From Actinomycetota bacterium (lineage in GTDB: Bacteria; Actinomycetota; Thermoleophilia; Gaiellales; Gaiellaceae), in NCBI GenBank assembly GCA_947507735.1, contig CANNRA010000003.1, positions 1-32,839 on the forward strand: a stretch of 32,839 nt of DNA, given 5' to 3'. This document shows positions 1,843-17,362 of this stretch, piece by piece. A program made the position numbers and the translations under genes. Under the pieces are notes generated by a model. The model was not told the DNA's origin. It searched no databases and saw nothing but the letters and a program-made list of their open reading frames with translations. Within the stretch, counting starts at the first letter, position 1. Each line of letters starts with the position of its first letter.

Positions 1843-1884
1843 ATGCCCCCGGCAAGAATCGAACTTGCGCTCACGGTTTAGGAA
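1843..1884 (-). repeat. attL: duplicated 3' fragment of tRNA-Arg(CCU)
   Basis: atgcccccggcaagaatcgaacttgcgctcacggtttaggaa identical to 17290-17331; no 5' half of tRNA follows. Confidence 0.95.
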
Positions 1885-1946: not shown

Positions 1947-1967
1947 TGCGCCAGTGATTGCGCCAGC
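1947..1967 (+). promoter_or_regulatory. Putative integrase arm-type site pair (attL side)
   Basis: TGCGCCAGT-gat-TGCGCCAGC; matching pairs near attR and between int and xis. Confidence 0.6.
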
Positions 1968-2056
1968 TGGACTTCAGAAAGGGAGCCCGACGAAGTAGCC
2001 GCGGCACAGCGTGACCACGAGGCGCTCGATCGATGGTCCTCATCGCTGACCCGAGA

Positions 2057-2656
2057 CTACGTAGGCAGCGAGACTCGCGACTGGAACCCGTAGAAGCGAT
2101 GAATCACGTCGTGCCGCCACGGCGCGGGGACACGGGCGACACGCCGCACGCCTCCAACCCGAAGACCTTCGTAGAGCTGAGCCGTCGGGACGGCGATTGG
2201 CTTCTTGAAGTCGAAGAAGATCTGAGGCATCGCGTCATCCGGGCCTTCGTCCCCGATGCCTGCGGTGTCGAATACGTGGTACCGCGCATTGTCATTTCGG
2301 ATGACAATCTTCCACGCCTTCGTTTCAGGGACGTGCTGCTTTACGTGTGCTTCGTCATAGACGTCGCACACGAGAACGTGGGGCACTGCCTTGGCCTTCG
2401 AATCGGCGTCGGCGGCCTGTGGGGTCAGGGCATTCTTGGAGTCGTCATCAGGGAACCGCTCGTTGAAGTCCCATACGAGATCGCAGTCGGGAGTCATGAC
2501 GATGACGAGCGCGTGCAAGAAAGATGTGATCGAGACTTCCAGGTCTGCCGGATGCTCGGTGGGCGGAATGCCTGGGCGGTGTTCCCATATCGGTCCGAGG
2601 ATCTCGCCCTGCTTGACAGGGCCGACAGCGGGCGACGCCTCGTAGCGAAAGCCCAC
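2057..2656 (-). CDS. Uncharacterised protein with QGEIL...VMTPDCDL motif, third gene of TIGR04255 cassette
   Basis: GTG start, GGAG upstream; VKQGEILGPI and ALVIVMTPDCDL motifs; 16 bp after preceding gene. Confidence 0.75.
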   Translation of the reverse strand: MGFRYEASPAVGPVKQGEILGPIWEHRPGIPPTEHPADLEVSITSFLHALVIVMTPDCDLVWDFNERFPDDDSKNALTPQAADADSKAKAVPHVLVCDVYDEAHVKQHVPETKAWKIVIRNDNARYHVFDTAGIGDEGPDDAMPQIFFDFKKPIAVPTAQLYEGLRVGGVRRVARVPAPWRHDVIHRFYGFQSRVSLPT

Positions 2657-2672
2657 CCGTCGCTCCAGCGCT

Positions 2673-2993
2673 TCAGTCAGCGACCACGAAGTGGGTGCGC
2701 TCGGCTAGCGCGGTGATCTTCGCCTTGCGCTCAATCACACGCTGTTGGACAGGTGCTGCGAGCAGCATCATCCGGTCGCGATGAAACTCCAGCATCTCAC
2801 CGAGCGACTCGACAGCCTCGTCGAGACCGTTCGGCGGCATCATGAAGAGAAGGGCATGGGCCATCATCCGCTTCGTCACCTCTTCTTGGCCGACGCCGCC
2901 AGTGGTGAACGCAAGGTCATACCCACCCGCGCAGAGCGTCCCGCTCAGGTCGTCGAACTCGACGGAGTGTCCCTCGGCCCTGCTAATCGTCAC
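2673..2993 (-). CDS. Small uncharacterised protein, middle gene of TIGR04255 cassette
   Basis: GTG at 2993 preceded by GGGGGAGC and overlapping TAG of upstream gene; VTISRAEGHSVEFDDLSGTLCAGGYDL... Confidence 0.65.
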   Translation of the reverse strand: MTISRAEGHSVEFDDLSGTLCAGGYDLAFTTGGVGQEEVTKRMMAHALLFMMPPNGLDEAVESLGEMLEFHRDRMMLLAAPVQQRVIERKAKITALAERTHFVVAD

Positions 2994-3765
2994 GCTCCCC
3001 CAGGGCAGCCCCCAAGCGAGGCTCGATGGCCCATCGGAATAGGTCGCCTGCCTGTCGGTTGAACTTGTCAAGCGTGACAAAAACTGCATCAGTGGCACTC
3101 CTCTCGTTGAGGAACCAGTCGGCATCGACGGTGAAGTGATCGCGGCTCGCGCCGTCTAGCAAGCCATGAACCAAGCGGACAGAGGCCCCCTGCGGGTCGT
3201 CCAGCGCGATGAACGTTTCGCCTCGGAGCGAGCGTACTCCTCCTCTGAGCGAAGGCTGATCAGCAAGCACGCCGAGCACGGCAGGAGACAGCAACTCGAC
3301 CCAGGGAACATCGGCGAGCCCAAGCCTCTCGCGATCGATCACGTCCCGGTAGCGAAGCCCGACCCTGCTGTAGAAGGCCGGCCGGTACACGTCCTCCAGC
3401 GCCTGCTTGGCGTGTTCGACCGCTTGCCGGAAGACCTCCCATCGCGAGTAGTTGTTGACGGAGATCGCCAAGAACTCGCTGGAGAGTGTCAGGCTTGCCG
3501 ATTCGTCCTCCGAGCTGAATCGGTGAGGGAAGGCCTCCTGGGAGACAGCGACGGGGAGCTCGGCAAGGAGCTTCGCCAGCCCTGCTGGCATGTTCAGCAC
3601 GGGCTCGACCCGAGAGTAGATCGGGTACACATCGCGGACGCGCTCCTGAAACGGTGCAGGTAGCTCAGCCGCGATCGCGAGGATGCTAGGGAAGGTGAGC
3701 TGGCAGATGACCTCGACGAGCGGGTTCTCGCGAAACACCAATCGGCGGGATTCGGGGAAGGACAT
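2983..3765 (-). CDS. TIGR04255 family protein
   Basis: RRLVFRENPLVEVICQLTFPSIL N-terminus, LTLSSEFLAISVNNYSRWEVF and YSRVGLRYRDVI typical of TIGR04255. Confidence 0.8.
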   Translation of the reverse strand: MSFPESRRLVFRENPLVEVICQLTFPSILAIAAELPAPFQERVRDVYPIYSRVEPVLNMPAGLAKLLAELPVAVSQEAFPHRFSSEDESASLTLSSEFLAISVNNYSRWEVFRQAVEHAKQALEDVYRPAFYSRVGLRYRDVIDRERLGLADVPWVELLSPAVLGVLADQPSLRGGVRSLRGETFIALDDPQGASVRLVHGLLDGASRDHFTVDADWFLNERSATDAVFVTLDKFNRQAGDLFRWAIEPRLGAALGERDD

Positions 3766-3994
3766 CAGCTTCTGTCCATGCGCACGAGCGTGGACACCCA
3801 CGCGCGTCTCATCCGAGCCATCATCGAATAGACCCTAGCGTTCCAAGCAGACACAGCAAAACGTGAACGTCAAAAATGCGCCATGAGCAGGAAGATCACG
3901 GTGGGGCACCCCTCGTCTCGCTGCCGCCCACCAAGACGGCAGCTCCGGCGGAGAGCGATTGCCCTCGGCCGGAGCCCACTTCGCGCAGGTGCCG

Positions 3995-5158
3995 CTAGGA
4001 AGCGGCCAGGTCATCCTCGAAGTACGTGTCGAGGCGGTCGGCCGCAGCAGCCTCACTGCCCCGCAGCAGGTGCCCGTAGCGATCCAACGTGGTCGCGACG
4101 CTCGCGTGCCCGATGTACGTGGAGATCTCCTTGACGTTCAGCCCGGTGTCGATCAGGAACGAGACAGCCGCGTGCCGAGCCACGTGAATCGACGTGACGG
4201 GAAGACCGGCCTCCTCCCATGCGTTCTTCGCCCGCCGGCTGACCGTCGAACCCACGAACGGCTTCACGCCGTCAGCGCCGAACACCAGCCCCGTCGACCG
4301 GCCCGTGCGGAGCCGGTGCTCGGCCAGCAGCGTCCGCAGCCGCTGCGTGAGAGGCACGACCCGCGTGCCCGCCTTGCTCTTCGGGACGATGAACTCCCGG
4401 GCCACACCGTCCCACCCGCGCTCCACCTTGACCGTCTTCGCATCCAGGTCAACGGCCGACCAGTCAAGCGCCTGGATCTCGCCGAGACGCAGCCCACCGT
4501 AGAACGCCGTCGCCCACAGGGCCCTGTCGCCGTCCGGCAGCGCCGCGAGGAGCTTCACCACATCGTCCTTCGTCACATCTGACCTCCTTGTGAGTTCGAC
4601 GGCAGGCATCTCGAGCCCGGCCGTCGGGTTGACAACAACATCGCCGCGCTTGCAGGCACGCCTGAAGATGGGCCGCAGCGGCATCAAGGTGTTCCGCACC
4701 GTGCTCGGACTCGCACCCCTGGCCAGCAGGCCGTCGGAGAAGTCTTGAAGATCAAGGCGGCTGAGGCTCGACAAACGGACGCTGCCGAACTCGGGCAGCA
4801 CCTCCGTCTCCATCGCCGCGCGATACCCGCGCAACGTGCTCGGCTTGAACTCGGCACCCTTCCGGGCACGGATCAGGCCGGAGCACGCCCCCGCGTACCA
4901 CTCATCCCAGGCCACCCGGACGGTCACCGGCGTCGGGGGCGCAAGCCGGCCCTTCCGCACGTCGACGACGGCGTCAGCGCGCCACGCCTTCGCAGCGGCC
5001 TTCGTCGGGAACGTCCGACGGATCTTCCGGCCGTGGCGGGCGTGATACGCCCATGCCTCCCAGCTGGGCGAGCACTTGCAGTCACCGCCGGCCTTCACCG
5101 GGCAGCCGCTGCGGTGACGGGGGCGCAGCCCCACCGGGTTATCCTTCGTCCGCGTCAC
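3995..5158 (-). CDS. int: Tyrosine recombinase / phage-type integrase
   Basis: Catalytic-domain motifs GGLRLGEIQALDW, SIHVARHAAVSFLIDTGLNVKEISTYIGHASVATTLDRYGHLL (R...HxxR...Y); N-terminal arm-binding-like region. Confidence 0.93.
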   Translation of the reverse strand: MTRTKDNPVGLRPRHRSGCPVKAGGDCKCSPSWEAWAYHARHGRKIRRTFPTKAAAKAWRADAVVDVRKGRLAPPTPVTVRVAWDEWYAGACSGLIRARKGAEFKPSTLRGYRAAMETEVLPEFGSVRLSSLSRLDLQDFSDGLLARGASPSTVRNTLMPLRPIFRRACKRGDVVVNPTAGLEMPAVELTRRSDVTKDDVVKLLAALPDGDRALWATAFYGGLRLGEIQALDWSAVDLDAKTVKVERGWDGVAREFIVPKSKAGTRVVPLTQRLRTLLAEHRLRTGRSTGLVFGADGVKPFVGSTVSRRAKNAWEEAGLPVTSIHVARHAAVSFLIDTGLNVKEISTYIGHASVATTLDRYGHLLRGSEAAAADRLDTYFEDDLAAS

Positions 5159-5250
5159 GATGCACCTCGTGTCGTCAGGGCGGGGCCGTTAGCGCGGTGC
5201 CCGCCCGTTGTCTCTTCCGGCATCAAGCTAACTCTGTGTGCCTGAACCAT

Positions 5251-5274
5251 CCAGTGCCCGCCGTCCGGCACTGG
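5251..5274. promoter_or_regulatory. 8-bp perfect inverted repeat in int-xis intergenic region
   Basis: CCAGTGCC-cgccgtcc-GGCACTGG. Confidence 0.5.
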
Positions 5275-5289
5275 CGCATTACTGGCGCA
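5270..5289 (-). promoter_or_regulatory. Putative integrase arm-type site pair in int-xis intergenic region
   Basis: Plus strand ACTGGCGCA-tt-ACTGGCGCA = minus strand TGCGCCAGT-aa-TGCGCCAGT. Confidence 0.55.
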
Positions 5290-5351
5290 CGCCTTCGCAA
5301 CCGCCCACAGCAAGCGGCCTCCCGGAACGCACACGGTTACGGAGGCCGCGT

Positions 5352-5624
5352 TCACAGGCCCTCCCGGAGCGTCCGCTCGGCGTGCGTGGCGACCCACTTC
5401 TGCAACTCGGCGACAGGCACGAGCACCAAGCGACCCCGCCGGATCAGCTTCAGCTCGGGCCGGACGTGCGTCGCGAAGAACTCCTCCGAGACACCGAGCG
5501 CCGCGATCGCTTCCTCCAAGCGATACGTGAGGCGCGGCACCGGCGGCACCTGCCGCGCGACCACCCCGCCGACAATCGCCTCCACGAGCAGCTCCAACAT
5601 CACCGGCGACGGCTGGGCGCTCAA
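5352..5624 (-). CDS. Excisionase-like helix-turn-helix protein
   Basis: RLTYRLEEAIAALGVSEEFFATHVRPELKLIRRGRLVLVPVAELQKWVATHA: MerR/Xis-type HTH; position upstream of int. Confidence 0.75.
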   Translation of the reverse strand: MSAQPSPVMLELLVEAIVGGVVARQVPPVPRLTYRLEEAIAALGVSEEFFATHVRPELKLIRRGRLVLVPVAELQKWVATHAERTLREGL

Positions 5625-5724
5625 CTCGACCGTCCCCGCATCAGAATCAGGAAGAGGCTGTAGTACCAGTACCTAAGGTTCTTGTTCTTGTTCTTCCTTA
5701 CGAGACAACATCTGTGATCTAGGG

Positions 5725-5925
5725 CAACTCCGATGCTGGTGGGGCGGGCGGCGGCCTTTTGCCCGTGGTTGGGCGGAATCCGGGGGGCGACGAACTCCGA
5801 TGACTTCTCCTCGATCTCCGAGCTGTGTCCGAAACGGCTAGACGGGTGAACTCCGAACGTCCGCTCGGTCACGGCCCCGCAGGCCGCGTGGTTGCGCCCA
5901 GCCTGGTGATCGCGGATCTCCGATG
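5725..5925. repeat. Iteron-like cluster, 5 copies of ~11-bp GAWCTCCGAWS
   Basis: CAACTCCGATG 5725-5735, GAACTCCGATG 5792-5802, GATCTCCGAGC 5813-5823, GAACTCCGAAC 5848-5858, GATCTCCGATG 5915-5925. Confidence 0.55.
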
Positions 5926-5940
5926 CGGTGGTGTGCGCGT

Positions 5941-6405
5941 TCACCGCGGCATATCCGATCCTTGACACGCTGCGAGACGCAGCTCGATGCGGTAGGCGGC
6001 GGTCTTGCCGCGGCCGGGAGGGTCGAACTCGATGTAGCCGCGGTCTCGGAGGTTCTTAAGGTCGTTCGCGATGCTGTCTCGGGACTTCTCGGGGAGGCCG
6101 AGAACGTCGAGCAGTTCGCGGATCTGCACAGTGACGGAGCCTGGCTGCGTGAAGTGATTCGCGGCCTGGTGCACGTTTAGGTGGACGAGGATCAGGTACT
6201 CGCGTTGGCTGATGAGGCCCGCGTTGCGCTCCCTGTACAGCCGTGTAGGAACCGGTGCGAACTGCTCGACACGCTTCCTCTGGCGGTCGTGCGTCCGGGC
6301 CGTCCGGGCAGCCTGCCCGAACTCATCGGAAGCGTCGCCAACCTTGAACTCCGGCATGTCGTCGTCAGAACCCGGCGCGTCGGGCAGGACGTAGTCGTCG
6401 CTCAC
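5941..6405 (-). CDS. Winged-helix DNA-binding protein, replication/regulation module
   Basis: LISQREYLILVHLNVHQAANHFTQPGSVTVQIRELLDVLGLPEKSRDSIANDLKNLRDRGYIEFDPPGRGKTAAYRIEL. Confidence 0.65.
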   Translation of the reverse strand: MSDDYVLPDAPGSDDDMPEFKVGDASDEFGQAARTARTHDRQRKRVEQFAPVPTRLYRERNAGLISQREYLILVHLNVHQAANHFTQPGSVTVQIRELLDVLGLPEKSRDSIANDLKNLRDRGYIEFDPPGRGKTAAYRIELRLAACQGSDMPR

Positions 6406-7181
6406 AGGAACTGCTCCCAGGGCGGCTGTGGGCGCGGGGAGAGGCGGGCGCGGCGGCGGCGAGCGTCGTCTTCGGCCCGCTTCAAGTGGCGGTCGAGTGC
6501 GTCCCTGCCGCCGTGAAGGTAGATGCTGCGGGCGTCGCGACCGTCGGGGAGCCTGACTGGGATCGCGTCCGGAACGTCGCGCACGACCTTCTGGTTCATC
6601 GCGCGGCCGGGACGGTCACCGTCTCCGAGCACGAAGACGCGGCCGAATGGGGAGACGTGCTTGGCCCACTCGGGCTTCCAGATCGTCGCGGATGGAAGGC
6701 CGATCACCGCGACTCCGTGGAATCGCGAGCCGTCGGGGACGCCGCGGTAGGCGCTGCGGCAGGCAAGGGTGTCGCTGTCGCCCTCGGCGACCAGCAGCAC
6801 CCAGCAGTGCCGCTCCTCGACGGGAGGAAGCGTCTCCAGGCCGAGCGGGATGATGGCCGCTTCCTTCGGCTCGCCCCACCACGGATTCCGACCGGGGGTA
6901 CGCCAAATCAGCTTCTCGCGGCAGAGCGACGCGTCCGGGTTCAGGTAGGGGATGCGAATCAGGCCACGCCTCTCGGTGACGAGAGCGGCACCCAGGACGT
7001 CGGGGTCGATGCCCTTCCAGTCAACGACCCACCTCCAGCCCTCGTTGAGCGGCGGAAGCCCAGGGGTCGACTTGTCAGCACCGTCCCCGGACGTGCCGAC
7101 CAGCGGCCCTGCAAGGTAGGAGATCGTGCCGGAGTGCAACTGGCCGTCTGCGGTGTGGCCGTTGGAGTCGCGTTTCGTCAC
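6402..7181 (-). CDS. Toprim-domain primase-like protein
   Basis: VLLVAEGDSDTLA and RVFVLGDGDRPGRAMNQKV (Toprim E and DxD motifs); GTG start overlapping TGA of methyltransferase (GTGA). Confidence 0.75.
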   Translation of the reverse strand: MTKRDSNGHTADGQLHSGTISYLAGPLVGTSGDGADKSTPGLPPLNEGWRWVVDWKGIDPDVLGAALVTERRGLIRIPYLNPDASLCREKLIWRTPGRNPWWGEPKEAAIIPLGLETLPPVEERHCWVLLVAEGDSDTLACRSAYRGVPDGSRFHGVAVIGLPSATIWKPEWAKHVSPFGRVFVLGDGDRPGRAMNQKVVRDVPDAIPVRLPDGRDARSIYLHGGRDALDRHLKRAEDDARRRRARLSPRPQPPWEQFL

Positions 7182-7996
7182 GCTTCCACCTGCTCGAACG
7201 GCACGGGAACGAGACGTAACCGGCGTGCCGCGAATGACGGATCCAGGTCGCAGAGGAGCGCCTTCCGGTCGCTCTCGCGGGCGGCGCGTCCGACGTTCCC
7301 GGAGCCGCAGAAGGGGTCGATCACGGTGTCGCCGGGAGCACTCCAATGGCGGATCAGCAGCGACAGCAAGTCGACCGGCTTCTCTGTCGGATAGGCGTCA
7401 CGGCCACGGACTCCCGGGTACCGCTGAACCGACCTGACGTTGCGGAAGTTCCCCTCCCTCCGGCCCTTCTCCAGGTCAAGGATGAACTCGTGCTGCGCCC
7501 TGACATCGGTGCCCATCCCGAGCTTGCACTTGTCCCAGACGATGCACCGCTTCACTTCGAACCCGACGGCCTTCGCAGCGGATTCGAAGATCGGGCGGTA
7601 CCACTCGTCGCAGAAGACGAGGCAGTGAGCGTTGGCTGCAAGCACCCTGTACAGCTCGCCGAAGACGGTCGGCCACACGTCGTCCGACGCGGTGTGCTCG
7701 AACCACTTCTTGAAGCTGCTGCCGCGCCGGTCGAAGAAGTAGGGCGGATCCGTGACGGCGAGGTCGACACTCTCCGATGGGAGAGACGCGAGCCAGTGTG
7801 TCGCGTCGCCTTCGACCAGGGTTACAAGGTCATCGCGTCGGGCGTCACGGCCTCGCCCGCGGTACGCCTTCTGCTTGCAAGCCGGGGTGCAGAAGCGCCG
7901 CTTCCGGCCGGTCTCCGGCTGCCAGAGCGGCGCTGAGCAGACCGGGCAGCGATCCGCCAGGGGTGGGCGCGAAGCCACAGCGAGCTTCGCGCTCAC
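7178..7996 (-). CDS. DNA (adenine-N6 or cytosine-N4) methyltransferase with N-terminal Cys motif
   Basis: DLAVTDPPYFFDR (motif IV), DPFCGSGNVGRAARES (motif I); N-term CPVC...CTPACK. Confidence 0.9.
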   Translation of the reverse strand: MSAKLAVASRPPLADRCPVCSAPLWQPETGRKRRFCTPACKQKAYRGRGRDARRDDLVTLVEGDATHWLASLPSESVDLAVTDPPYFFDRRGSSFKKWFEHTASDDVWPTVFGELYRVLAANAHCLVFCDEWYRPIFESAAKAVGFEVKRCIVWDKCKLGMGTDVRAQHEFILDLEKGRREGNFRNVRSVQRYPGVRGRDAYPTEKPVDLLSLLIRHWSAPGDTVIDPFCGSGNVGRAARESDRKALLCDLDPSFAARRLRLVPVPFEQVEA

Positions 7997-8601
7997 CAGC
8001 TGCCCTCCCCCGGGCGCAGCCCGGGAGCAGGGTCTTCGTCGCTACCGCCTCCTCGGGAGGGGTCGCCCGGCGACCGGGCGGTGCTCGAACGGCGGCGCGA
8101 ACGCGACGCGCGGGCGCGCGGGGCGCGCCGGATCATCGAGTCGTGCGGACGGCGGACGGGCTGCGGCGCACGTGACATAGGAACGGGCCGCGGCCGATAC
8201 GACCGCGCGATCTCCTCACGGCGCTCGTCGAACTTGCGATCCACCCTGTCCTCCGCAACGCCCTCCAGGTAGCCAGGGAGTTCGTCGTCAACGACAGACT
8301 CCAGCTCCCACAGCTCGGCCCTCACGGCGTCCTCGTAGTCCCAAGAAGTGAACTCGTTCAGCTGGCGAATGCGCCCGGCGAGTTCGGGATCGTGGGCGCA
8401 GATCTCACACCAGCGTTCCATGTACGCCGGGTGGAACGTCGTGCGGCCCTTCGCGCACTCCTGGAGGATCTGGATGTCTTCGGCGCTGAGGTCGGGGCCG
8501 AGGACGAAGTCCGGGTCAAAGTCGCACGCGCCTTCGGCGCGCAGGTCTTCCATCAGCTGGCGGCTAATCGCAGCGGCCTTCTCGGTGTCCTTCGTATTCA
8601 A
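7993..8601 (-). CDS. Hypothetical protein upstream of methyltransferase
   Basis: Long ORF overlapping methyltransferase start by 4 nt; acidic N-terminal half, Arg/Ser-rich tail; exact start uncertain (TTG or downstream ATG). Confidence 0.6.
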   Translation of the reverse strand: MNTKDTEKAAAISRQLMEDLRAEGACDFDPDFVLGPDLSAEDIQILQECAKGRTTFHPAYMERWCEICAHDPELAGRIRQLNEFTSWDYEDAVRAELWELESVVDDELPGYLEGVAEDRVDRKFDERREEIARSYRPRPVPMSRAPQPVRRPHDSMIRRAPRARASRSRRRSSTARSPGDPSRGGGSDEDPAPGLRPGEGSW

Positions 8602-8803
8602 GGCGACTGCATGGTAGGGCCAAGTACCGTCTGCTGCAACCGCAGTTTCTACTGCCTAACGCTCCCACTGCAGGCGCTGTGTTGGCCGGACGTGCAACAT
8701 GCTGGCTCGGCGGCGGCGGCAGCGGTACGAACGACGCGCTGCGTGGAACTCATGTGCCGCGTATCACGCCGATCGTGGCTCAGATGCAGCAGCGGGCGAT
8801 TCC

Positions 8804-10168
8804 CTAGAACGTCTTGGTCATCGCCTTTGGCTTAGTCATAGAAGATGGCTTGACGACGATCGTGCGGGTGAGTCGGGTGAGGTTCCCGAGCTTGTCACGG
8901 GCGACGATCGTGACCGTGTGTTTGCCGGGCTTCCACCCGGAGGCAGGCTTGAACGAGAGCGTCGTTGCTGGCCCGTAGGAACGAAGTGGCTTCCCATCGA
9001 CGGTGACTTGGACGGTGGCGATCTTGCTGCCGGTGGCGACGATGGCGACGGTGACGGACTGGTCGGGTGTGATGATCGCCGGGGGCAGGTTGATCGCCGG
9101 GCCGGTCGCGTCGATCTGAACTGTCGCGCTCCCGGTCGCGTGGTTGGCGTCGCTGTCCTTGACATCGAGGGCGAGCGTGTAGGTGCCTGCGGGCACGGGG
9201 CTACCGCTGGCGTCAAGACCATCCCAGGTGAGGCTGTGGTCTCCGGCCTTCACCAGAAGGTCAGTCGCGAGCGATCGCAGCGTCGAGCCGTCCGGGCTGG
9301 TGAGGGTGGCGTTCACGGTGGCATTGCGGCTGATCGAGTAGTCGGCGGTCAGCGGGTTGCCGGGACTACCGACCGGAGTGTCGAACGTGGGGCCGGTCAG
9401 CGACACGGGGCCGATGCCGATCTTGATCTGCCACTTTGCGGGCGGGCCGTCTTTCGCCTCGACCGTCAGTGGGTAGTAGTAGTTGGTGCGGAGGGTGCCG
9501 AAATCAAGATGGCCCGCTGAGGCAATCGTCTTCGTGGTGTTTCCGAAGCTGATCGTCACGGCCCCCTGGGTGACGCTGACATCGGCGACGTAATGGCCGC
9601 TCTCCAGCGCCGTGAAGGCGAGGGTGGAAGTTCCGGGAGGGGGGTATCCGGTACCGGGATTCGAGTCGACGCCCGCGAACACCACCGGCGTGGAAGGCGC
9701 ATCGTAGAACTCGAAGGTGAACGAACTCCCTGGGGAGCACGCGTACACATGGGTGCCGACCTTATCCCCGTTTCGAACGTCGAAGTTGCTCGTGTGCCGG
9801 AGCCGAGTCCAAGTCGCGGACTGCGCGGGAAGCGTGATTCCTTCAGTGCCGAAGAGACTGACGGCAACATCAGCGGTGTCCTGGCTAATCGCGCGAACGA
9901 GCACGACCTCGTGATTACCCGACGCCGTGGCGTCATCAGTCGCGAGCATGTAGGTCGATCCGGTCGCGTACTCGATCGGATCACTCTGTCGCGAACACGC
10001 AGCGTTCAACGTCAGGAACGGCTTGACCGTTGCCGCGCTCGCAACGGGGGCGGCGATCCATACGACCGCCAGGAGGATCGCAGCCGCCACCAGAAGACCG
10101 CGGGAAGCGATCACCTGACGCCCTGAGTCCATCGAGACGACCCGCCATCGACGCGTCACTCCACTCAT
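8804..10168 (-). CDS. Secreted protein with FlgD-type Ig-like domain
   Basis: Signal peptide LLVAAAILLAVVWIAAPVASAA; NATVNATLTSPDGSTLRSL...GDHSLTWDGLDASGSPVPAGTYTLALDVKDS (FlgD Ig-like). Confidence 0.8.
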   Translation of the reverse strand: MSGVTRRWRVVSMDSGRQVIASRGLLVAAAILLAVVWIAAPVASAATVKPFLTLNAACSRQSDPIEYATGSTYMLATDDATASGNHEVVLVRAISQDTADVAVSLFGTEGITLPAQSATWTRLRHTSNFDVRNGDKVGTHVYACSPGSSFTFEFYDAPSTPVVFAGVDSNPGTGYPPPGTSTLAFTALESGHYVADVSVTQGAVTISFGNTTKTIASAGHLDFGTLRTNYYYPLTVEAKDGPPAKWQIKIGIGPVSLTGPTFDTPVGSPGNPLTADYSISRNATVNATLTSPDGSTLRSLATDLLVKAGDHSLTWDGLDASGSPVPAGTYTLALDVKDSDANHATGSATVQIDATGPAINLPPAIITPDQSVTVAIVATGSKIATVQVTVDGKPLRSYGPATTLSFKPASGWKPGKHTVTIVARDKLGNLTRLTRTIVVKPSSMTKPKAMTKTF

Positions 10169-10291
10169 CGAAACGTCACCCCCTCTTCGGTTACACCGCT
10201 CCGAGCCACCGGCAGCGACATCACACGCGGCTTATGCAATCACATGCGAATGCGGTGGCCTTAGACGGAGCTTACGACGACCCTGGGCTGC

Positions 10292-10549
10292 GTGGAGTTC
10301 TCGCCCCGCCACCGCGCTCTCGGAGATGCCATCCGCGCAGCTCGCAAGAGCCGCGGCGTCAGCCAGGAGCAGCTCGGCTTCGCGTCCGGGCTGCACCGAA
10401 ACCACGTTGGTGGCGTCGAGCGTGGCGACCTGAACCCCGCTATTGGCACGCTTTGGCGGCTCGCCGATGGCCTCGGGGTTCCCCTGTCCGAACTCCTTGC
10501 CGACGCCGAGCGCCTGGACGCCGCGCGTCATGCGGGACACTCCGGCTGA
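10292..10549 (+). CDS. XRE-family HTH transcriptional regulator
   Basis: LGDAIRAARKSRGVSQEQLGFASGLHRNHVGGVERGDLNPAIGTLWRLADGLGVPLSELL. Confidence 0.9.
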   Translation: MEFSPRHRALGDAIRAARKSRGVSQEQLGFASGLHRNHVGGVERGDLNPAIGTLWRLADGLGVPLSELLADAERLDAARHAGHSG

Positions 10550-10749
10550 TCGTCGGTCGGCAGGTCGCCGCGAAACAGCGCGCGCCCCATCGACCAAACC
10601 TCGCCACTCGTTGCCTCGTCCCCGAGAAGCTGCCCGGCGACCACGAGCGCCAGGTCGAAGCGCGCGCGGAGGGCGTCGGTGGTCGCATCCGCGGGGTACG
10701 CGAGTCCACGCCCGGGCGCGGTAGGCGGAGGTTGTTCGACGTCGCTCAC
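10528..10749 (-). CDS. Small hypothetical protein convergent with XRE regulator
   Basis: GTG at 10749; VSDVEQPPPTAPGRGLAYPADATTDALRARFDLALVVAGQLL...; 3' end overlaps XRE 3' end by 22 bp. Confidence 0.45.
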   Translation of the reverse strand: MSDVEQPPPTAPGRGLAYPADATTDALRARFDLALVVAGQLLGDEATSGEVWSMGRALFRGDLPTDDQPECPA

Positions 10750-10966
10750 GGCACACAGAGGTAGCTCTGTTGTGCCCTCGCAGCAAGTCGTTGGGGCGGA
10801 AACCGGGGTTGCCCGTATACGGATCAATCTGTTCCGCCCTGCTTCTGCTTTGCAGCCCGAATGTCCCGATGAACTGAGCGCTTTCGCACTGGATGCGACG
10901 GAGGTCGTTGAGCTACTGTCGGCGCGCCTCGGACGAGGCAGAAGCCGAATGCGAACGGAGGATCAA

Positions 10967-11167
10967 ATGGCTCGGAGAAGCGTCACGGTGAGCGACCTGT
11001 CGGGCGTCGAGATCCCAGAGGGGTCGGGTGCGACCGTCGTCATCAGGTTCGCCGACGAACGGCGGGGGGCGATCACGATGGACGTCACGGTGGAGGAGGC
11101 GCTCGAACTCGGGAAGAGCGGCCGCAAGCAGGCCCGGCGCGGCCGAAAGCCGACCGGCAAGGAGTAG
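10967..11167 (+). CDS. Small basic-tailed protein, possibly Lsr2 N-terminal-like
   Basis: GGAGG 5 nt before ATG; MARRSVTVSDLSGVEIPEGSGATVVIRFADERRGAITMDVTVEEALELGKSGRKQARRGRKPTGKE. Confidence 0.65.
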   Translation: MARRSVTVSDLSGVEIPEGSGATVVIRFADERRGAITMDVTVEEALELGKSGRKQARRGRKPTGKE

Positions 11168-11254
11168 CTGGCAAGAGCACGACCCGGAGCGCGGCGGACT
11201 GCCTCCGAGCAGGTCTCTCCCAGGGGAGGTGCGGCGGCGTGGGGCCGGTGGCGC

Positions 11255-12040
11255 TTAGCGCCGTTGTCGCGCCGCTCGCAGTTCGCTTTCGAGTGCGACG
11301 ACCGAGGATCGGAGCGCCTCGACCTGGCGCAGGATGAGTTCGTCGTGTTCTTCGAGCGTCTCGACTTCCTCCTCGATCACGCGTGCCTCGGACGCGAGGA
11401 AAGCCTGGGCTATGGCACCGGTGACGAGGGCGAACATGCTGATCCCGGCGACCATGACGACGACCGCAGTCACGCGGCCCACGACCGTGACCGGGTAGAG
11501 GTCACCGTAACCGACGGTGGCGCTTGTGACGACCGCCCACCAGATGGCGGTACCAAACGTCTTGTGTTCGGAGTGGGCGAAGACGGCTGCGCCGCTGACG
11601 ATGATGAGCGACGCGAACATCGCGGCGTGTTTGAGTCCACCCGGGGTCAGAAGCTGCCGTAATCGAGAGAAGGCTGGCAAGAGCCGAAGCAGGCGGAGCA
11701 GGCGAAGAAGCCGCGAGAGGCGAGCAAGCCGGAGCACGCCGAGTCCCGCTGGCAAGACCGGGAACGTCACGATGGTGATGGCGACCATGAACCACTGCGA
11801 GCGCAGCCAGGTGCGCCGGGCGGGGTCGAACGCGATCCGCGCGCTTAGCTCGGCCGCGAAGACAGACCAGGACACCCAGTCGAGCACGGTGGCGGCGTGC
11901 CGCAATCCACGGTCGCTGGAGTCCCCGAGGACAAGTGCCGGGATGACGATGATCGCTGCCGCGATGACCGCGATGTCGAAGGCGATCCACACCGGCACGG
12001 CGCGCCCGCGGATGACAAGATCCTGATCGGCCGTTGACAC
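11255..12040 (-). CDS. Voltage-gated K+ channel (6TM-type) with C-terminal coiled coil
   Basis: S4-like LRLARLSRLLRLLRLLRLLPAFSRLRQLL; selectivity filter TSATVGYGDLYPVT; C-term coiled-coil-like EEEVETLEEHDELILRQVEALRSSV. Confidence 0.93.
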   Translation of the reverse strand: MSTADQDLVIRGRAVPVWIAFDIAVIAAAIIVIPALVLGDSSDRGLRHAATVLDWVSWSVFAAELSARIAFDPARRTWLRSQWFMVAITIVTFPVLPAGLGVLRLARLSRLLRLLRLLRLLPAFSRLRQLLTPGGLKHAAMFASLIIVSGAAVFAHSEHKTFGTAIWWAVVTSATVGYGDLYPVTVVGRVTAVVVMVAGISMFALVTGAIAQAFLASEARVIEEEVETLEEHDELILRQVEALRSSVVALESELRAARQRR

Positions 12041-12070
12041 ACTGGGAACCTACGGCAAAGCTGCTTCGGC

Positions 12071-13111
12071 ATGGCGGACAGACGGGGAGGCATCGCACTC
12101 GTCGCAGCAGTGGCACTAGCCCTGATGCTGTCGGTCAGCGCCGCTGCTGACACGCCGCCTGCCGGTGCGACGGCGCAGTGCACGGACGGCACCTACAGCT
12201 TCTCGCAGACGCGCTCCGGAACGTGTTCGCATCACGGCGGCGTTGCCACCTGGCTGACGGCTTCGTCGGCTCCTGCCACGACGGCGGCCACAACAACCGC
12301 TCCGGCCCCGCCACCCCCGGTCACGACGGCCCCGGCCACCACCACCACGGCTGCGCCGACTACGACCGCTCCCGTACCCGCGGTCACGACTAGCGCAACA
12401 ACGACAGCGGCGGCTCCCGCCGCGACCACGACGACTCCAGCGGTGGTCGCGGTGGCTCCGGTAGGTGCGACGGCGCGCTGCCGTGACGGCTCGTTCAGCT
12501 TCTCGCAGACCCGGTCGGGAACCTGCTCTCGACACGGTGGCGTGCAGACCTGGCTCGCGGCCACTGGTGGCGCGACCGGTACAGCGGCGACCACGACCGC
12601 CCCGGCACCGTCCACGGCTGCTCCGTCGTCATCGGCCGCTGATTCGCCCGGCGTCGGGGTGACGGTGCTTCTTGCGCCCAGATCGAAGTCCACGGGCTGC
12701 AAGCGCGGCCCGAACCCCGACCGAGCCTGCTCCCCGGGCGCGTACTACACCGGCCTCACCGCGAGCGTGCTCTGCTCGTCAGGCTTCCACACCAGCACCA
12801 TCCGGAACGTGCCCGACTCCGAGAAGCACGCCGTCGAAGCCGAGTATGGGATGCCGCCAGGTGCGTACGGGAGCACCATCGAGATCGACCACATCGTCTC
12901 GCTCGAACTCGGCGGCTCCAACGACATCGCGAACCTCTTCCCTGAACCCGGCAGTGGCCCGGCGAGCTACCACGCGAAGGACAAGCTGGAGAACAAGCTA
13001 CACGCGCTCGTCTGCACTGGCGCTATGGCCCTACGTGCCGCCCAGCGCGGGATCGCCGCGAACTGGCAGGGCCTCTACCGGCAGGTCTTCGGCGTCGCCC
13101 CGACCAGCTGA
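12071..13111 (+). CDS. Secreted HNH endonuclease-like protein with two DUF3761 modules
   Basis: Signal peptide; GATAQCTDGTYSFSQTRSGTCSHHGGVATWL and GATARCRDGSFSFSQTRSGTCSRHGGVQTWL; Ala/Thr/Pro linkers; IEIDHIVSLELGGSNDIANLFPE. Confidence 0.85.
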   Translation: MADRRGGIALVAAVALALMLSVSAAADTPPAGATAQCTDGTYSFSQTRSGTCSHHGGVATWLTASSAPATTAATTTAPAPPPPVTTAPATTTTAAPTTTAPVPAVTTSATTTAAAPAATTTTPAVVAVAPVGATARCRDGSFSFSQTRSGTCSRHGGVQTWLAATGGATGTAATTTAPAPSTAAPSSSAADSPGVGVTVLLAPRSKSTGCKRGPNPDRACSPGAYYTGLTASVLCSSGFHTSTIRNVPDSEKHAVEAEYGMPPGAYGSTIEIDHIVSLELGGSNDIANLFPEPGSGPASYHAKDKLENKLHALVCTGAMALRAAQRGIAANWQGLYRQVFGVAPTS

Positions 13112-13119
13112 CCTGACCG

Positions 13120-13305
13120 ATGATCGTCTACGGCCTCGCGTCCGATCTGAGCCACGACGCCGAGCTGTTCGTCCGCCGAGAGGACGCCGAGCGGGAACTC
13201 GCTGACGCCCTCAACGACATGCCGGAATGGCGGGACGTGGTCTACATCGTCGCGATCGACCTCGGCGGGGGTGAGCCGACGGTGGCGCGGCTTCCGACTC
13301 CTTAG
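13120..13305 (+). CDS. Small hypothetical protein downstream of secreted HNH gene
   Basis: MIVYGLASDLSHDAELFVRREDAERELADALNDMPEWRDVVYIVAIDLGG...; 8 bp after preceding stop. Confidence 0.6.
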   Translation: MIVYGLASDLSHDAELFVRREDAERELADALNDMPEWRDVVYIVAIDLGGGEPTVARLPTP

Positions 13306-13709
13306 CTCGGCCGTCGTGGGGTGTTCGGCACCCGGTAGCGGCGGCATAGGTCGAGCAACGCCGGGAGTGCGTCGTGCCGGTGCGCGTCGAGGAGAACGAG
13401 CGCGAGTCTGGAGTCCGGGAGCGTGAGTCCCGAGACTGTGAGCGCGAACCGCGCGTGCCAGCGGACGGCTGCCCGCTCGAACCGGTCGGGCTGATGGACG
13501 CGGATGAGTTCGAGCAGCCGGAGCGCGTCACCGAGCGGGAGCGGTGCGAGGTCGCGAGCGAGCGCATCGGCCTGCAGGAAGTTGCCTCGGTCGAGCGCGC
13601 GTTGGAGCTGTCCGTGGAGGGATCCCTGCGAAGTCAAGACGAACAGATGTTCCCACACGGCCGCCGATGCTTGGACGGCGACTCCCCGCGCGCTCGACCT
13701 CGTCTCCAC
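13302..13709 (-). CDS. Hypothetical protein
   Basis: ORF with coherent amphipathic helices (LHGQLQRALDRGNFLQADALARDLAPLPLGDALRLLELIRVHQPDRFERAAVRWHARF...). Confidence 0.6.
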   Translation of the reverse strand: METRSSARGVAVQASAAVWEHLFVLTSQGSLHGQLQRALDRGNFLQADALARDLAPLPLGDALRLLELIRVHQPDRFERAAVRWHARFALTVSGLTLPDSRLALVLLDAHRHDALPALLDLCRRYRVPNTPRRPS

Positions 13710-13721
13710 GGCCGCGCGCTC

Positions 13722-14255
13722 TCACCGATAGCTGCTGTCGTCCCAGCCTTCCCGAACTCTCCTGGCCCGAAGGAGCCTCTCGTTCTCCACAGCCTGCTCG
13801 CGAGAGTCGTACTCGACCACATCGAGCACCACCTCGCCCCCTCGTCCCGCCCGAAGGAGGTCATAGAGCCAGGGGATCGAGTCAGGCTCCGAGAGACGGC
13901 CCTTGCACGTCGCGACCCATCGGCTTCTGAGACGGCTGTACAGGTGCGTCGCCATCCCGGACTGAGCGCACTTCCCCTCCGGCCATGACAAGTCGTACGT
14001 CCAGGCGGCAACTGCCTCCGACGTCTCGCGATCGCGGGCGCTGACGAGCCAGTCGGGTTCGCCGCCAACATCGAGCGGGCCACCCTCAAAGAAGCACTCG
14101 GAGCACCGCCGCCGCTCCCGCTTGGCGTTCGTTACCCGCCTCACCTTGAACGAAGCTTGTTCCCGCTCACACAAGATTCGACAGTGACGGCTGAGGTGCT
14201 TCAGCTCCGGGCCACCGTCGCCTTCGGCATAGCCCGAGTTGATGTAGACAGCCAC
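13722..14255 (-). CDS. Putative zinc-binding protein with possible divergent GIY-YIG-like region
   Basis: N-term HLSRHCRILC...RRCSECFF; central TYDLSWPEGKCAQSGMATHLYSRLRSRW; C-term VVEYDSREQAVENERLLRA. Confidence 0.6.
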   Translation of the reverse strand: MAVYINSGYAEGDGGPELKHLSRHCRILCEREQASFKVRRVTNAKRERRRCSECFFEGGPLDVGGEPDWLVSARDRETSEAVAAWTYDLSWPEGKCAQSGMATHLYSRLRSRWVATCKGRLSEPDSIPWLYDLLRAGRGGEVVLDVVEYDSREQAVENERLLRARRVREGWDDSSYR

Positions 14256-14435
14256 GGCTGAACGCTACGTCAGACCCACGCCCAGGTCGAATCCGGGCGG
14301 GCGAACGAGAGCCGGATCCCTTGTCTCGTCCAAGCCAACGCTGGGTGCGACTGGGGGTCTCGCCCGCGAGCACGACCTGCCGCTCAGCGGTGCCCGAATT
14401 GGCGATTCCACCTCGGCGGGAGCAATGATCGCGGC

Positions 14436-15113
14436 ATGAGCGATCCGACCGACCGAGCCGACCGCTTCACGTGGAAGGCGGGCGAAATCGTCTGGACGAA
14501 ACCGCCCGCGGGACACAACTTCCCAGCGGGTGACCCTGGCGAGCCGCCCCTGACGCCGCACGAAGGCTCGTGTGACGACGACCACCGCCAGGCCGACACC
14601 ACGCCCGCCGCACGCCCCTTCCGGCACCTAACCCCGGAGAACTGGCGACTCCCCGACCCCACGTCCGCGCAGTTCGTCAGGGACGCCGACAAGTGGGCGG
14701 CGCTGATCCTGGAGATCGACCTCGACGCTGACGTGCCCGCGCCCGTTCGGGACAACTTCGAGATCGCCCGTGGCCTCGCCGCCTACGCCCACTTCTTCTA
14801 CCCGTTCCACATGCTCGCCATCGAGCACCTCGGCCGGGTCGCCGAAGTCGCGGCACGAATCCGGTGCGAGCAGCTCGGCCGCCGCAAGCTCGCGTCCTTC
14901 AAGGGGAACATCGCCTGGCTGGCCGCAGAGGGGTACATCAGCACGGATCAACGCGGGTGGTGGGACACCGCGCTCCACTTCCGCAACACCGGGTCGCACC
15001 TCGCCGACTACCGCGCCATTCCACCAGCGGTCGTACACAACGTGGTCGAGTCGGGAGCCGCAGCTATCAACGACCTCGTCCGCGATTCGTCGGCCACTCA
15101 CCCGCGTGAGTAG
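14436..15113 (+). CDS. HEPN-like helical protein (candidate RNase/Abi-like)
   Basis: WWDTALHFRNTGSHLADYRAIPP contains RNxxxH (Rx4H) HEPN-type motif in a helical C-terminal domain. Confidence 0.55.
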   Translation: MSDPTDRADRFTWKAGEIVWTKPPAGHNFPAGDPGEPPLTPHEGSCDDDHRQADTTPAARPFRHLTPENWRLPDPTSAQFVRDADKWAALILEIDLDADVPAPVRDNFEIARGLAAYAHFFYPFHMLAIEHLGRVAEVAARIRCEQLGRRKLASFKGNIAWLAAEGYISTDQRGWWDTALHFRNTGSHLADYRAIPPAVVHNVVESGAAAINDLVRDSSATHPRE

Positions 15114-15159
15114 CGACTCCGATCAGATGACCGCGTAGCGGTCTCGCCAGCACACGCGG

Positions 15160-15984
15160 CTAGACGTCGCTGCTGACTTCGGCGTGCCTCTTCAAGAAGG
15201 TAATCCAACTTCGAGCGGGCACCCCAGCGAGCGGTTGGTCGAGCATCCGCTCGACGTACTCGTCCATCACTCCGACCCGTGCGATCCGTCCGAAGTTGCC
15301 GCCGGAGTCGGTGATCGCCCTGTCGCTGATCTTCTCCTTCTTCATCGGGTACGGCGGCAGATCACCAACACCAGAAGGACGGACGATGCTGCGGTCATCC
15401 TCAGCTCTCTGCCACTGCTTCTCGTGCTCCCACCAGTGGTTTCGCTTCTCCGCCGCCCACCGCGCTCTCTCGATGAAGGGCTGAAGCACAACTGGACGAC
15501 CAGAGAGGACGTTCGTCAGGTACCAAGGAACAACGACTAGAAGATCCCACTGGGAGCAAGCGTCAGGATCGACCTTGTAGCGGAAGCTAGGCTCTGCCTC
15601 CTTCGAGAGCAGGTACCAGCCCTTCAACTCGATCCCGAACTTGACTTCTCGATTGCCGTTCGGAAGTCCGAGCTCGAACCGCACATCAGGGAACACCTGC
15701 TCGTAGCGGCGAAACCCGTACAGCTTCACCTCGTCGGTTTCCCACACTTCGCGAATGAGATTCAGTGTCCGGACGACCTGAACTTCGATGGACGCACCCA
15801 GCGTCGAACTCAGGGTGAAGAGATCAGTCGCGCCAACACCTTCGATGTTCGTCTCTGAACGGAAGTAGTTTGGAAGAGCGATCAGGGCTTCCTGCACGCG
15901 CTGCCAGACTTCGACGAGTCCTGGGTCACCCACGGGCGGAGCATCGGGACGCTCCGGTGGTGGAGGAGGCGCGGCGGCAGCCAT
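15160..15984 (-). CDS. Putative Type II restriction endonuclease, PD-(D/E)XK-like
   Basis: QVFPDVRFELGLPNGNREVKFGIELKGWYLLSKEAEPSFRYKV (PD...ExK); adjacent to methyltransferase. Confidence 0.65.
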   Translation of the reverse strand: MAAAAPPPPPERPDAPPVGDPGLVEVWQRVQEALIALPNYFRSETNIEGVGATDLFTLSSTLGASIEVQVVRTLNLIREVWETDEVKLYGFRRYEQVFPDVRFELGLPNGNREVKFGIELKGWYLLSKEAEPSFRYKVDPDACSQWDLLVVVPWYLTNVLSGRPVVLQPFIERARWAAEKRNHWWEHEKQWQRAEDDRSIVRPSGVGDLPPYPMKKEKISDRAITDSGGNFGRIARVGVMDEYVERMLDQPLAGVPARSWITFLKRHAEVSSDV

Positions 15985-16016
15985 CCTCGGATCGTATGCC
16001 GGAGGGCAGACGGCGC

Positions 16017-17042
16017 TTAGAGTTCAGCGTGCGTGCTTCTTAGACGCTCGACTGCGACTCGGTAGAAGACTTCGTTTAGTTCCGCGCCGTACCCCTCGCG
16101 ATTGCTGAGCGCAGCTGCAACAAGCGCCGTGGCCGTTCCAGCGAACGGCTCCCAGACCACGGCCCCTTCGTCGGAAGTCCAACGGATCGTGTCACGAACG
16201 AGCGACAGCGGCTTCTGGTTCATGTGGACGCTTCGCCCATTCAGTTTGATCCGTTCAGCGCCGCGAACGGCGGGATGGTGCCAGACGTTGTGCCTGTCAG
16301 GCGGACAGTGAAACGTCGGCCGTAGGGCATCCCACTCTTCGGCGCTGACCGGTGCCTCTCCGTCCAGTGAGAAGTACGGAGTGTCGCTAGGTTCACCGTG
16401 TTCGTTCGCGTATTCGGCCAACTTCGCTAGCGCCTCACCGGGCGGCGCGTACCACAGGTGACATGCTGTGAACCACTTGCGCGTCGCAGCATTCTTGACG
16501 CCTGCAGCCTGATTCGTCAGCGACATCGGTAGCCGTGTTCGCTGCCATTCGGCGCGCAGCCAATCCTTCATCGGCACCTGCTTGCCGTCTTCGCCGCGTG
16601 GAAGCAAGACCTTCCGCACGTACTGGACACACAGCTCCGTGACCGCGGGAAGCTGACGAAGGGTCTTTGAGTTGGCGTTACCCGCAACGTGACCTGCACC
16701 CTTGTCCCAGACACACGCACGGACGTATGACCATCCCGCCGAGTCCAGAAGCGGATGAACGGTGGCCCAGCCGATCTCGGAACACCAGAACCACAGTGTT
16801 GTAGATGGCTTGGCCCGTTTCGACCATGCGAGGACGTGCGGCTCGTAGACCTTCGCGAGCGAGTTGACCGTGGGTGGGTCGCCCGGAAACGATCGAAGGC
16901 CGTAAGGGCCGTCTGAGACAACTACGTCGGGAGCAGGCCAACTGTCGTAGCAAGACAAGGCGTCAGCAAGCGACAGATGCGTTCCACCCTGGGTGAACAT
17001 CTTCCGAGCCTTAGCGCGAGCGGGAGCGGCCACGACCCTCAC
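16017..17042 (-). CDS. DNA methyltransferase (N4/N6 amino type), R-M partner
   Basis: VVVSDGPYGLRSFPGDP (motif IV variant), HMNQKPLSLVRDTIRWTSDEGAVVWEPFAGTATALVAA (motif I); GTG start, alternative ATG at 17000. Confidence 0.85.
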   Translation of the reverse strand: MRVVAAPARAKARKMFTQGGTHLSLADALSCYDSWPAPDVVVSDGPYGLRSFPGDPPTVNSLAKVYEPHVLAWSKRAKPSTTLWFWCSEIGWATVHPLLDSAGWSYVRACVWDKGAGHVAGNANSKTLRQLPAVTELCVQYVRKVLLPRGEDGKQVPMKDWLRAEWQRTRLPMSLTNQAAGVKNAATRKWFTACHLWYAPPGEALAKLAEYANEHGEPSDTPYFSLDGEAPVSAEEWDALRPTFHCPPDRHNVWHHPAVRGAERIKLNGRSVHMNQKPLSLVRDTIRWTSDEGAVVWEPFAGTATALVAAALSNREGYGAELNEVFYRVAVERLRSTHAEL

Positions 17043-17161
17043 GGTAGAGATTCTCCCGGACGCGCCGCGGCTCGCTACGTAACGACGGCGTTAGCGAGTC
17101 GCCGCTGGTACCCGAGGCCCAAGCAGAGCGCTACGGGCAGTCGCGGCCGAATCCACGGCGT

Positions 17162-17182
17162 TGCGCCAGTGAATGCGCCAGT
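17162..17182 (+). promoter_or_regulatory. Putative integrase arm-type site pair (attR side)
   Basis: TGCGCCAGT-gaa-TGCGCCAGT, same orientation and 12-bp period as the pair at 1947-1967. Confidence 0.6.
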
Positions 17183-17190
17183 CGTCGCCC

Positions 17191-17220
17191 GGTTCCAGCG
17201 GGTTCAGGCGGATTCCAGCG
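17191..17220 (+). repeat. Three 10-bp phased imperfect repeats adjacent to attR
   Basis: GGTTCCAGCG GGTTCAGGCG GATTCCAGCG. Confidence 0.6.
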
Positions 17221-17289
17221 GAACTCGGTGCGTCGGCCAGGCCGCGGTGAAACTGCTGCACGTTGGCGTCTTCCGCTCAACCATGCGGT

Positions 17290-17331
17290 ATGCCCCCGGC
17301 AAGAATCGAACTTGCGCTCACGGTTTAGGAA
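17290..17331 (-). repeat. attR core (3' part of tRNA-Arg)
   Basis: 42-bp identical to 1843-1884. Confidence 0.95.
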
Positions 17332-17362
17332 ACCGATGCTCTATCCACTGAGCTACGGGGGC
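17291..17362 (-). tRNA. tRNA-Arg (anticodon CCU)
   Basis: GCCCCCGUAGCUCAGUGGAUAGAGCAUCGGUUUCCUAAACCGUGAGCGCAAGUUCGAUUCUUGCCGGGGGCA; 7-bp acceptor stem and T stem pair, loop UUCCUAA. Confidence 0.95.

Follow-up and report, generated by a model that had tools for sequence, protein, structure and literature searches.

Directly repeated pairs as probable arm-type integrase sites in a tRNA-inserted mobile element of a Gaiellaceae bacterium

The window, that is, the whole stretch of 32,839 nucleotides analyzed here, contains a 15-kb mobile element that is inserted in a tRNA gene and carries a pair of short direct repeats just inside each of its ends. The question raised by this locus is which protein, if any, reads these pairs. 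We conclude that the TGCGCCAGT pairs very probably serve as arm-type sites for the heterobivalent (lambda-class) tyrosine integrase that the element itself encodes, a reading that takes in bridging of arm and core by the integrase, an array for the RDF and regulation through a third pair. The features at the two ends are as follows:

1843..1884, plus strand: distal att core copy (attL), an exact 42-bp repeat with the sequence of the tRNA-Arg 3′ part
1947..1967, plus strand: P′-arm pair, candidate arm-type sites, TGCGCCAGT-GAT-TGCGCCAGC, period 12, 62 bp inside the core
17162..17182, plus strand: P-arm pair, candidate arm-type sites, TGCGCCAGT-GAA-TGCGCCAGT, period 12, beginning 109 bp past the tRNA 3′ end
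17290..17331, no strand assigned: tRNA-side att core copy (attR), within the tRNA gene, exact 42-bp repeat
17291..17362, minus strand: tRNA-Arg(CCT), the intact integration target, found by ARAGORN

Read directly from the sequence, both arm pairs lie on the same strand with a 12-bp period, and the gaps between core and pair are 62 bp (1885-1946) and 107 bp (17183-17289). The coordinates, sequences, orientation and period given for the two pairs in a preliminary description were exact, and its two distances were reproduced from the exact coordinates of the 42-bp core. An empty attachment site, sought via the flanking gene in a search without positive control, was not found. The right end of the element is occupied by a type II restriction-modification pair (15160-17042), with a REase-like gene at 15160-15984 and a methyltransferase at 16017-17042, and the cargo also includes a second DNA methyltransferase (7178-7996), a primase-like protein (6402-7346; PHROG 849, E 4e-11) and an ion-channel protein (11255-12040).

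The pattern TGCGCCAGN{2,4}TGCGCCAG has exactly three matches in the 2.16-Mb assembly, 3/3 of them inside the element, and an 8-mer pair recurring at more than one place was seen in 0 of 200 dinucleotide shuffles of the element, vs three places observed. The preliminary description had called for a count of the motif in the host genome and for a search in elements with related integrases. The paired pattern proved to be as rare as just stated, and the search revealed that such elements have corresponding pairs in each arm, with distances that are conserved. Its proposal that the pairs are candidate attP arm-type sites is supported by this rarity, by the geometry in relatives, and by covariation of the motif with the N-terminal domain of the integrase and not with the RDF; the arrangement it envisaged, with pairs flanking the core on both sides in the circular form as in lambda/L5-type systems, is borne out by pairs in both arms here and in relatives.

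The integrase is encoded within the element:

3995..5158, minus strand: tyrosine integrase, 387 aa, Pfam Phage_integrase (PF00589) E 1.2e-19, PHROG integrase E 5.8e-63
4949..5158, minus strand: predicted N-terminal arm-binding domain of the integrase, residues 1-70, carrying the covarying R12, E34, K45 and R47

Its AlphaFold2 model (pLDDT 92) matches the fold of full-length lambda Int (1z1b/1z1g) over 370-390 columns. The N-terminal domain is modeled with high pLDDT as three strands (residues 11-14, 32-39, and 44-50) and a helix (53-68), with residues 12, 34, 45, and 47 placed on the three strands at alternating positions. Across 51 relatives the catalytic-type columns R224, K260, R328, H351, and Y361 are invariant and H325 is kept in at least 90%; we take these columns to be the R-K-H-R-H-Y catalytic set. 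With a catalytic domain, a separate N-terminal domain composed of a three-stranded sheet and a helix, and candidate sites on both sides of the core, the protein has the attributes of a lambda-class integrase. Phage and plasmid collections contained distant integrases only (~24-34% identity among the matches listed, mostly aligned outside the N-terminal domain), and no close relative was found in the phage collection, where the best matches have ~30% identity. A scan of genome contigs with the integrase gave one weak match; the named match is a distant Thermoleophilaceae MAG. No 16S gene turned up when the assembly was searched for one.

Related integrases, 31-51% identical, are spread across the host's class, and a phylum-wide draw at 1e-60 yielded no related integrase outside that class. 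In the relatives, the tRNA-side pair consists of direct repeats of period 11 (sometimes 12) starting 100-115 bp past the tRNA 3′ end, about 107 bp, and occurs at this distance beside tRNAs for Arg, Ser, SeC, Cys, and Trp. A second pair, of period 12, lies ~60 bp inside the distal core where a core copy is findable, a distance that ranges over 30-92 bp in elements whose shared core differs in length. One unit is common to both arms in 14 elements, while the unit itself varies from element to element: it is ACTGGCGCA in the window, TGTCGCG in G073, ACTGGGGC in G097 and G088, ACTGGCGAACG in G034_190, and ACTGACGCGAG in G237b, with GTGGGGACA as a further example, and further off the units are unrelated words such as TGGGAAAG in the more distant G325. 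G241 is an exception with differing units in its two arms. This element (L078) has CTGTGCCAC and CTGGCGCAA as arm units and an in-frame TGA in its integrase frame, and is possibly composite or decaying. A clear arm pair was not found in some relatives (G038, G058, G134a).

A second geometry is seen in elements at tRNA-Glu(CTC) (L039, L083, L086, L118), in which the arms are swapped relative to the tRNA. These have a short core of 21-25 bp that covers tRNA positions of about 54-74. Their period-12 pair is found 46-49 bp away from the tRNA end, and 94-141 bp separate their period-11 pair from the distal core. Whichever the orientation of the element, period 12 therefore marks one arm.

The bases of the unit were numbered A1 C2 T3 G4 G5 C6 G7 C8 A9, and all integrase columns were scanned over 29 elements, which were chosen for having a pair and whose unit registers were set by eye. 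For base 5 the best columns are residues 45 (z 12.2), 34 (7.4), and 12 (6.9), and the next column scores 3.8. Base 7 varies with residue 34 (z 8.5). Residue 45 and base 5 combine as K/G in 15 elements, K/T in 1, R/T in 10, and R/A in 1, for which a Fisher value of 2e-6 is obtained from the K/R by G/T cells only and ignoring relatedness. On a tree built from integrase residues 90-387, base 5 changed at least 10 times, and among seven independent G/T contrasts residue 45 switches between K and R in five and residue 34 changes in six. R47 is replaced by Y in two elements in which C6 becomes G, where two other columns score equally.

These sequences may reflect a code in which residue 45 (K/R) would specify base 5 (G/T), residue 34 (E/Q or R/V) base 7 (G or C), and residue 47 (R/Y) base 6 (C/G). 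If read on the complementary strand, E would go with C and Q with A, in line with contact preferences that are common. There are exceptions, namely K45 with T5 (G192), R45 with A5 (G237b), and E34 with T5 (G304). In a held-out test drawn from a lower-threshold search, the one callable case with a pair (G791) was correct and G340 was consistent; most loci from the pattern-only search lack a full integrase, apparently owing to contig ends or to decay of the element.

The preliminary description was correct on the two arm pairs and missed two further features, a third pair beside the RDF gene and a 10-bp array in the tRNA-side arm:

5270..5289, minus strand: third pair, internal to the element, TGCGCCAGT-AA-TGCGCCAGT at period 11, opposite in orientation to both arms
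5352..5624, minus strand: RDF/Xis-like small HTH gene, 90 aa, weak PHROG excisionase match (E 0.008), with homologues in most related elements
17197..17221, minus strand: array of three 10-bp direct repeats (CCGCT-N5) between the core and the P-arm pair, 14/15 match to CCGCT x3

The RDF-like gene is upstream of the integrase gene, and the third pair sits between them, with 62 bp separating it from the RDF stop and 111 bp from the int start. Scores of 12-15/15 for the CCGCT array were found in 13/20 elements examined, at an offset of 62-77, where at most 1.4% of background windows score so. The array resembles a cooperative Xis array and is a candidate set of Xis/RDF binding sites.

Could the repeats be mere chance, a repeat of the host genome, or targets for some unrelated regulator, and play no part in recombination? 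A pattern-only search with GCGCCAGTN{3,4}GCGCCAGT in 399 genomes of the class bears on this. Exact GCGCCAGT pairs gave 63 matches in 45/399 genomes, ~0.16 per genome, and the reversed pattern used as control gave ~65, as chance occurrence would have it. As the paired pattern is no commoner than its reversal, raw genome counts were rejected as evidence and position was used instead; a lone pair without position means little. Of 30 loci read, 10 have the pair in the predicted orientation at 91-116 bp past the 3′ end of a tRNA, and one more fits the second geometry with its pair 50 bp past a tRNA-Glu; the ten tRNA-spaced loci correspond to a rough binomial P of 5e-25, a value that depends on a roughly assumed tRNA density. 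Eight loci (L172, L177, L179, L189, L193, L196, L197, L198) have an arm pair at the expected tRNA distance and no integrase in the stretch read; such integrase-less arm pairs may be old att scars, contig breaks or cases of distant int genes. A chance or host-repeat origin is largely refuted by the conserved geometry. Across relatives the distance to the tRNA is fixed and the two arms match. All three matches in the host's own genome lie within the element, and the motif covaries with the N-terminal domain of the integrase, which leaves this explanation scarcely credible.

RDFs of known systems bind direct repeats in att arms, and the third pair adjoins the RDF gene in the window and in five relatives (G011, G045, G088, G134b, G137), near the 3′ end of that gene. 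The pairs might then belong to the Xis/RDF protein instead of the integrase, with a part in excision and in regulating the RDF-int region. We consider this very unlikely and set RDF binding of the pairs aside: no RDF column is associated with the motif bases (best z 2.3 and 2.8), vs 9-12 for N-domain columns of the integrase in the same elements, the pairs are found in both arms as integrase sites are, and the CCGCT array, confined to one arm, is the better candidate for the RDF. For the third pair alone, a serious contender, to which we give somewhat less than an even chance, is that it is not regulatory but either left over from an older attP arrangement or an accessory site for recombination. 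The third pair is on the strand opposite to the arms in four resolved elements, and it keeps its place by the RDF gene also in G088 and G134b, whose int lies elsewhere; both would suit a relic or an accessory site. Against this, it carries each element's own unit and has thus kept pace with the integrase, and there is a precedent in KplE1 intS for control by arm-type sites. Since int follows the third pair in the window and in G011, integrase autoregulation of int is plausible.

Taking the pairs as arm-type sites of the integrase, we infer the following arrangement. In the excised circle, the P-arm pair would lie on the tRNA side and the P′-arm pair on the other, around the tRNA-derived core. 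The N-terminal domain, with its three-stranded sheet and helix, would bind TGCGCCAGTNNNTGCGCCAG and read each unit, and the C-terminal domain would act on the core, so that a single integrase could bridge arm and core to build the intasome. The Xis-like RDF probably occupies the 10-bp array between the core and the P-arm pair during excision, and integrase bound at the third pair, upstream of int, probably regulates that gene. A bolder proposal is that the N-terminal domain reads its site by a simple evolvable code, that co-resident elements are insulated by switching of this code and that the conserved RDF-linked third pair couples integrase occupancy to gene control; we hold this proposal tentatively, as only just short of an even chance.

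Arm-type sites are usually spotted by eye, in single phages in turn. The present integrases form an apparently undescribed family and provide a natural experiment, in which at least 10 arm-site changes are tracked by a few residues of one N-domain sheet. With such covariation, arm specificity becomes predictable and can be put directly to the test by exchange of two or three residues. The geometry also gives a rule for locating attP arms in raw sequence, with one pair ~107 bp from the tRNA 3′ end at period 11 or 12 and the other ~60 bp on the other side at period 12, and the third pair points out an integrase-linked site beside the RDF gene.

Paired arm-type sites as such are already known from L5, Giles and the cluster K phages; the covariation of residues and bases over multiple lineages and the excisionase-linked third pair are new. 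In mycobacteriophages of cluster K (CrimD, Angelica, Anaya, Adephagia, Pixie), a core derived from a tRNA or tmRNA lies between pairs of putative arm-type sites of 11 bp, and variants of the site that have either T or G at one of its positions accompany substitutions at N-domain positions 17 and 19 (PMC3203893). Both features, the paired sites around such a core and the T/G variants with N-domain changes, recur in the present elements. However, in K1 the sites P3/P4 run opposite to P1/P2 (PMC3203893), whereas the arm pairs here share one orientation; the cluster K covariation comes from four closely related integrases, compared here with 29 that are divergent and with base changes numbering at least 10; and the link of a third pair to the RDF gene is a feature of the present elements that sets them apart from cluster K. 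In the attP sites of L5 and Giles, arm-type sites are paired in direct orientation to either side of the core, and L5 has additional ones (PMC3203893). The directly repeated pairs described here likewise keep the same orientation on both sides, with another integrase and another site sequence. Lambda Int (PDB 1z1b, 1z1g, 5j0n) appears from the model to share the full-length fold, including the N-terminal arm-binding domain, and the heterobivalent arm/core architecture, but it has only 18-20% identity in the structural alignment and other arm sites. Finally, in the KplE1 prophage (IntS/TorI), the int promoter is governed by arm-type sites together with RDF sites (PMC2951348), and the extra arm-type pair here possibly controls int in a like manner; the promoter overlaps attL in KplE1, whereas the extra pair of the present element is next to the RDF gene, at a distance from either att site.
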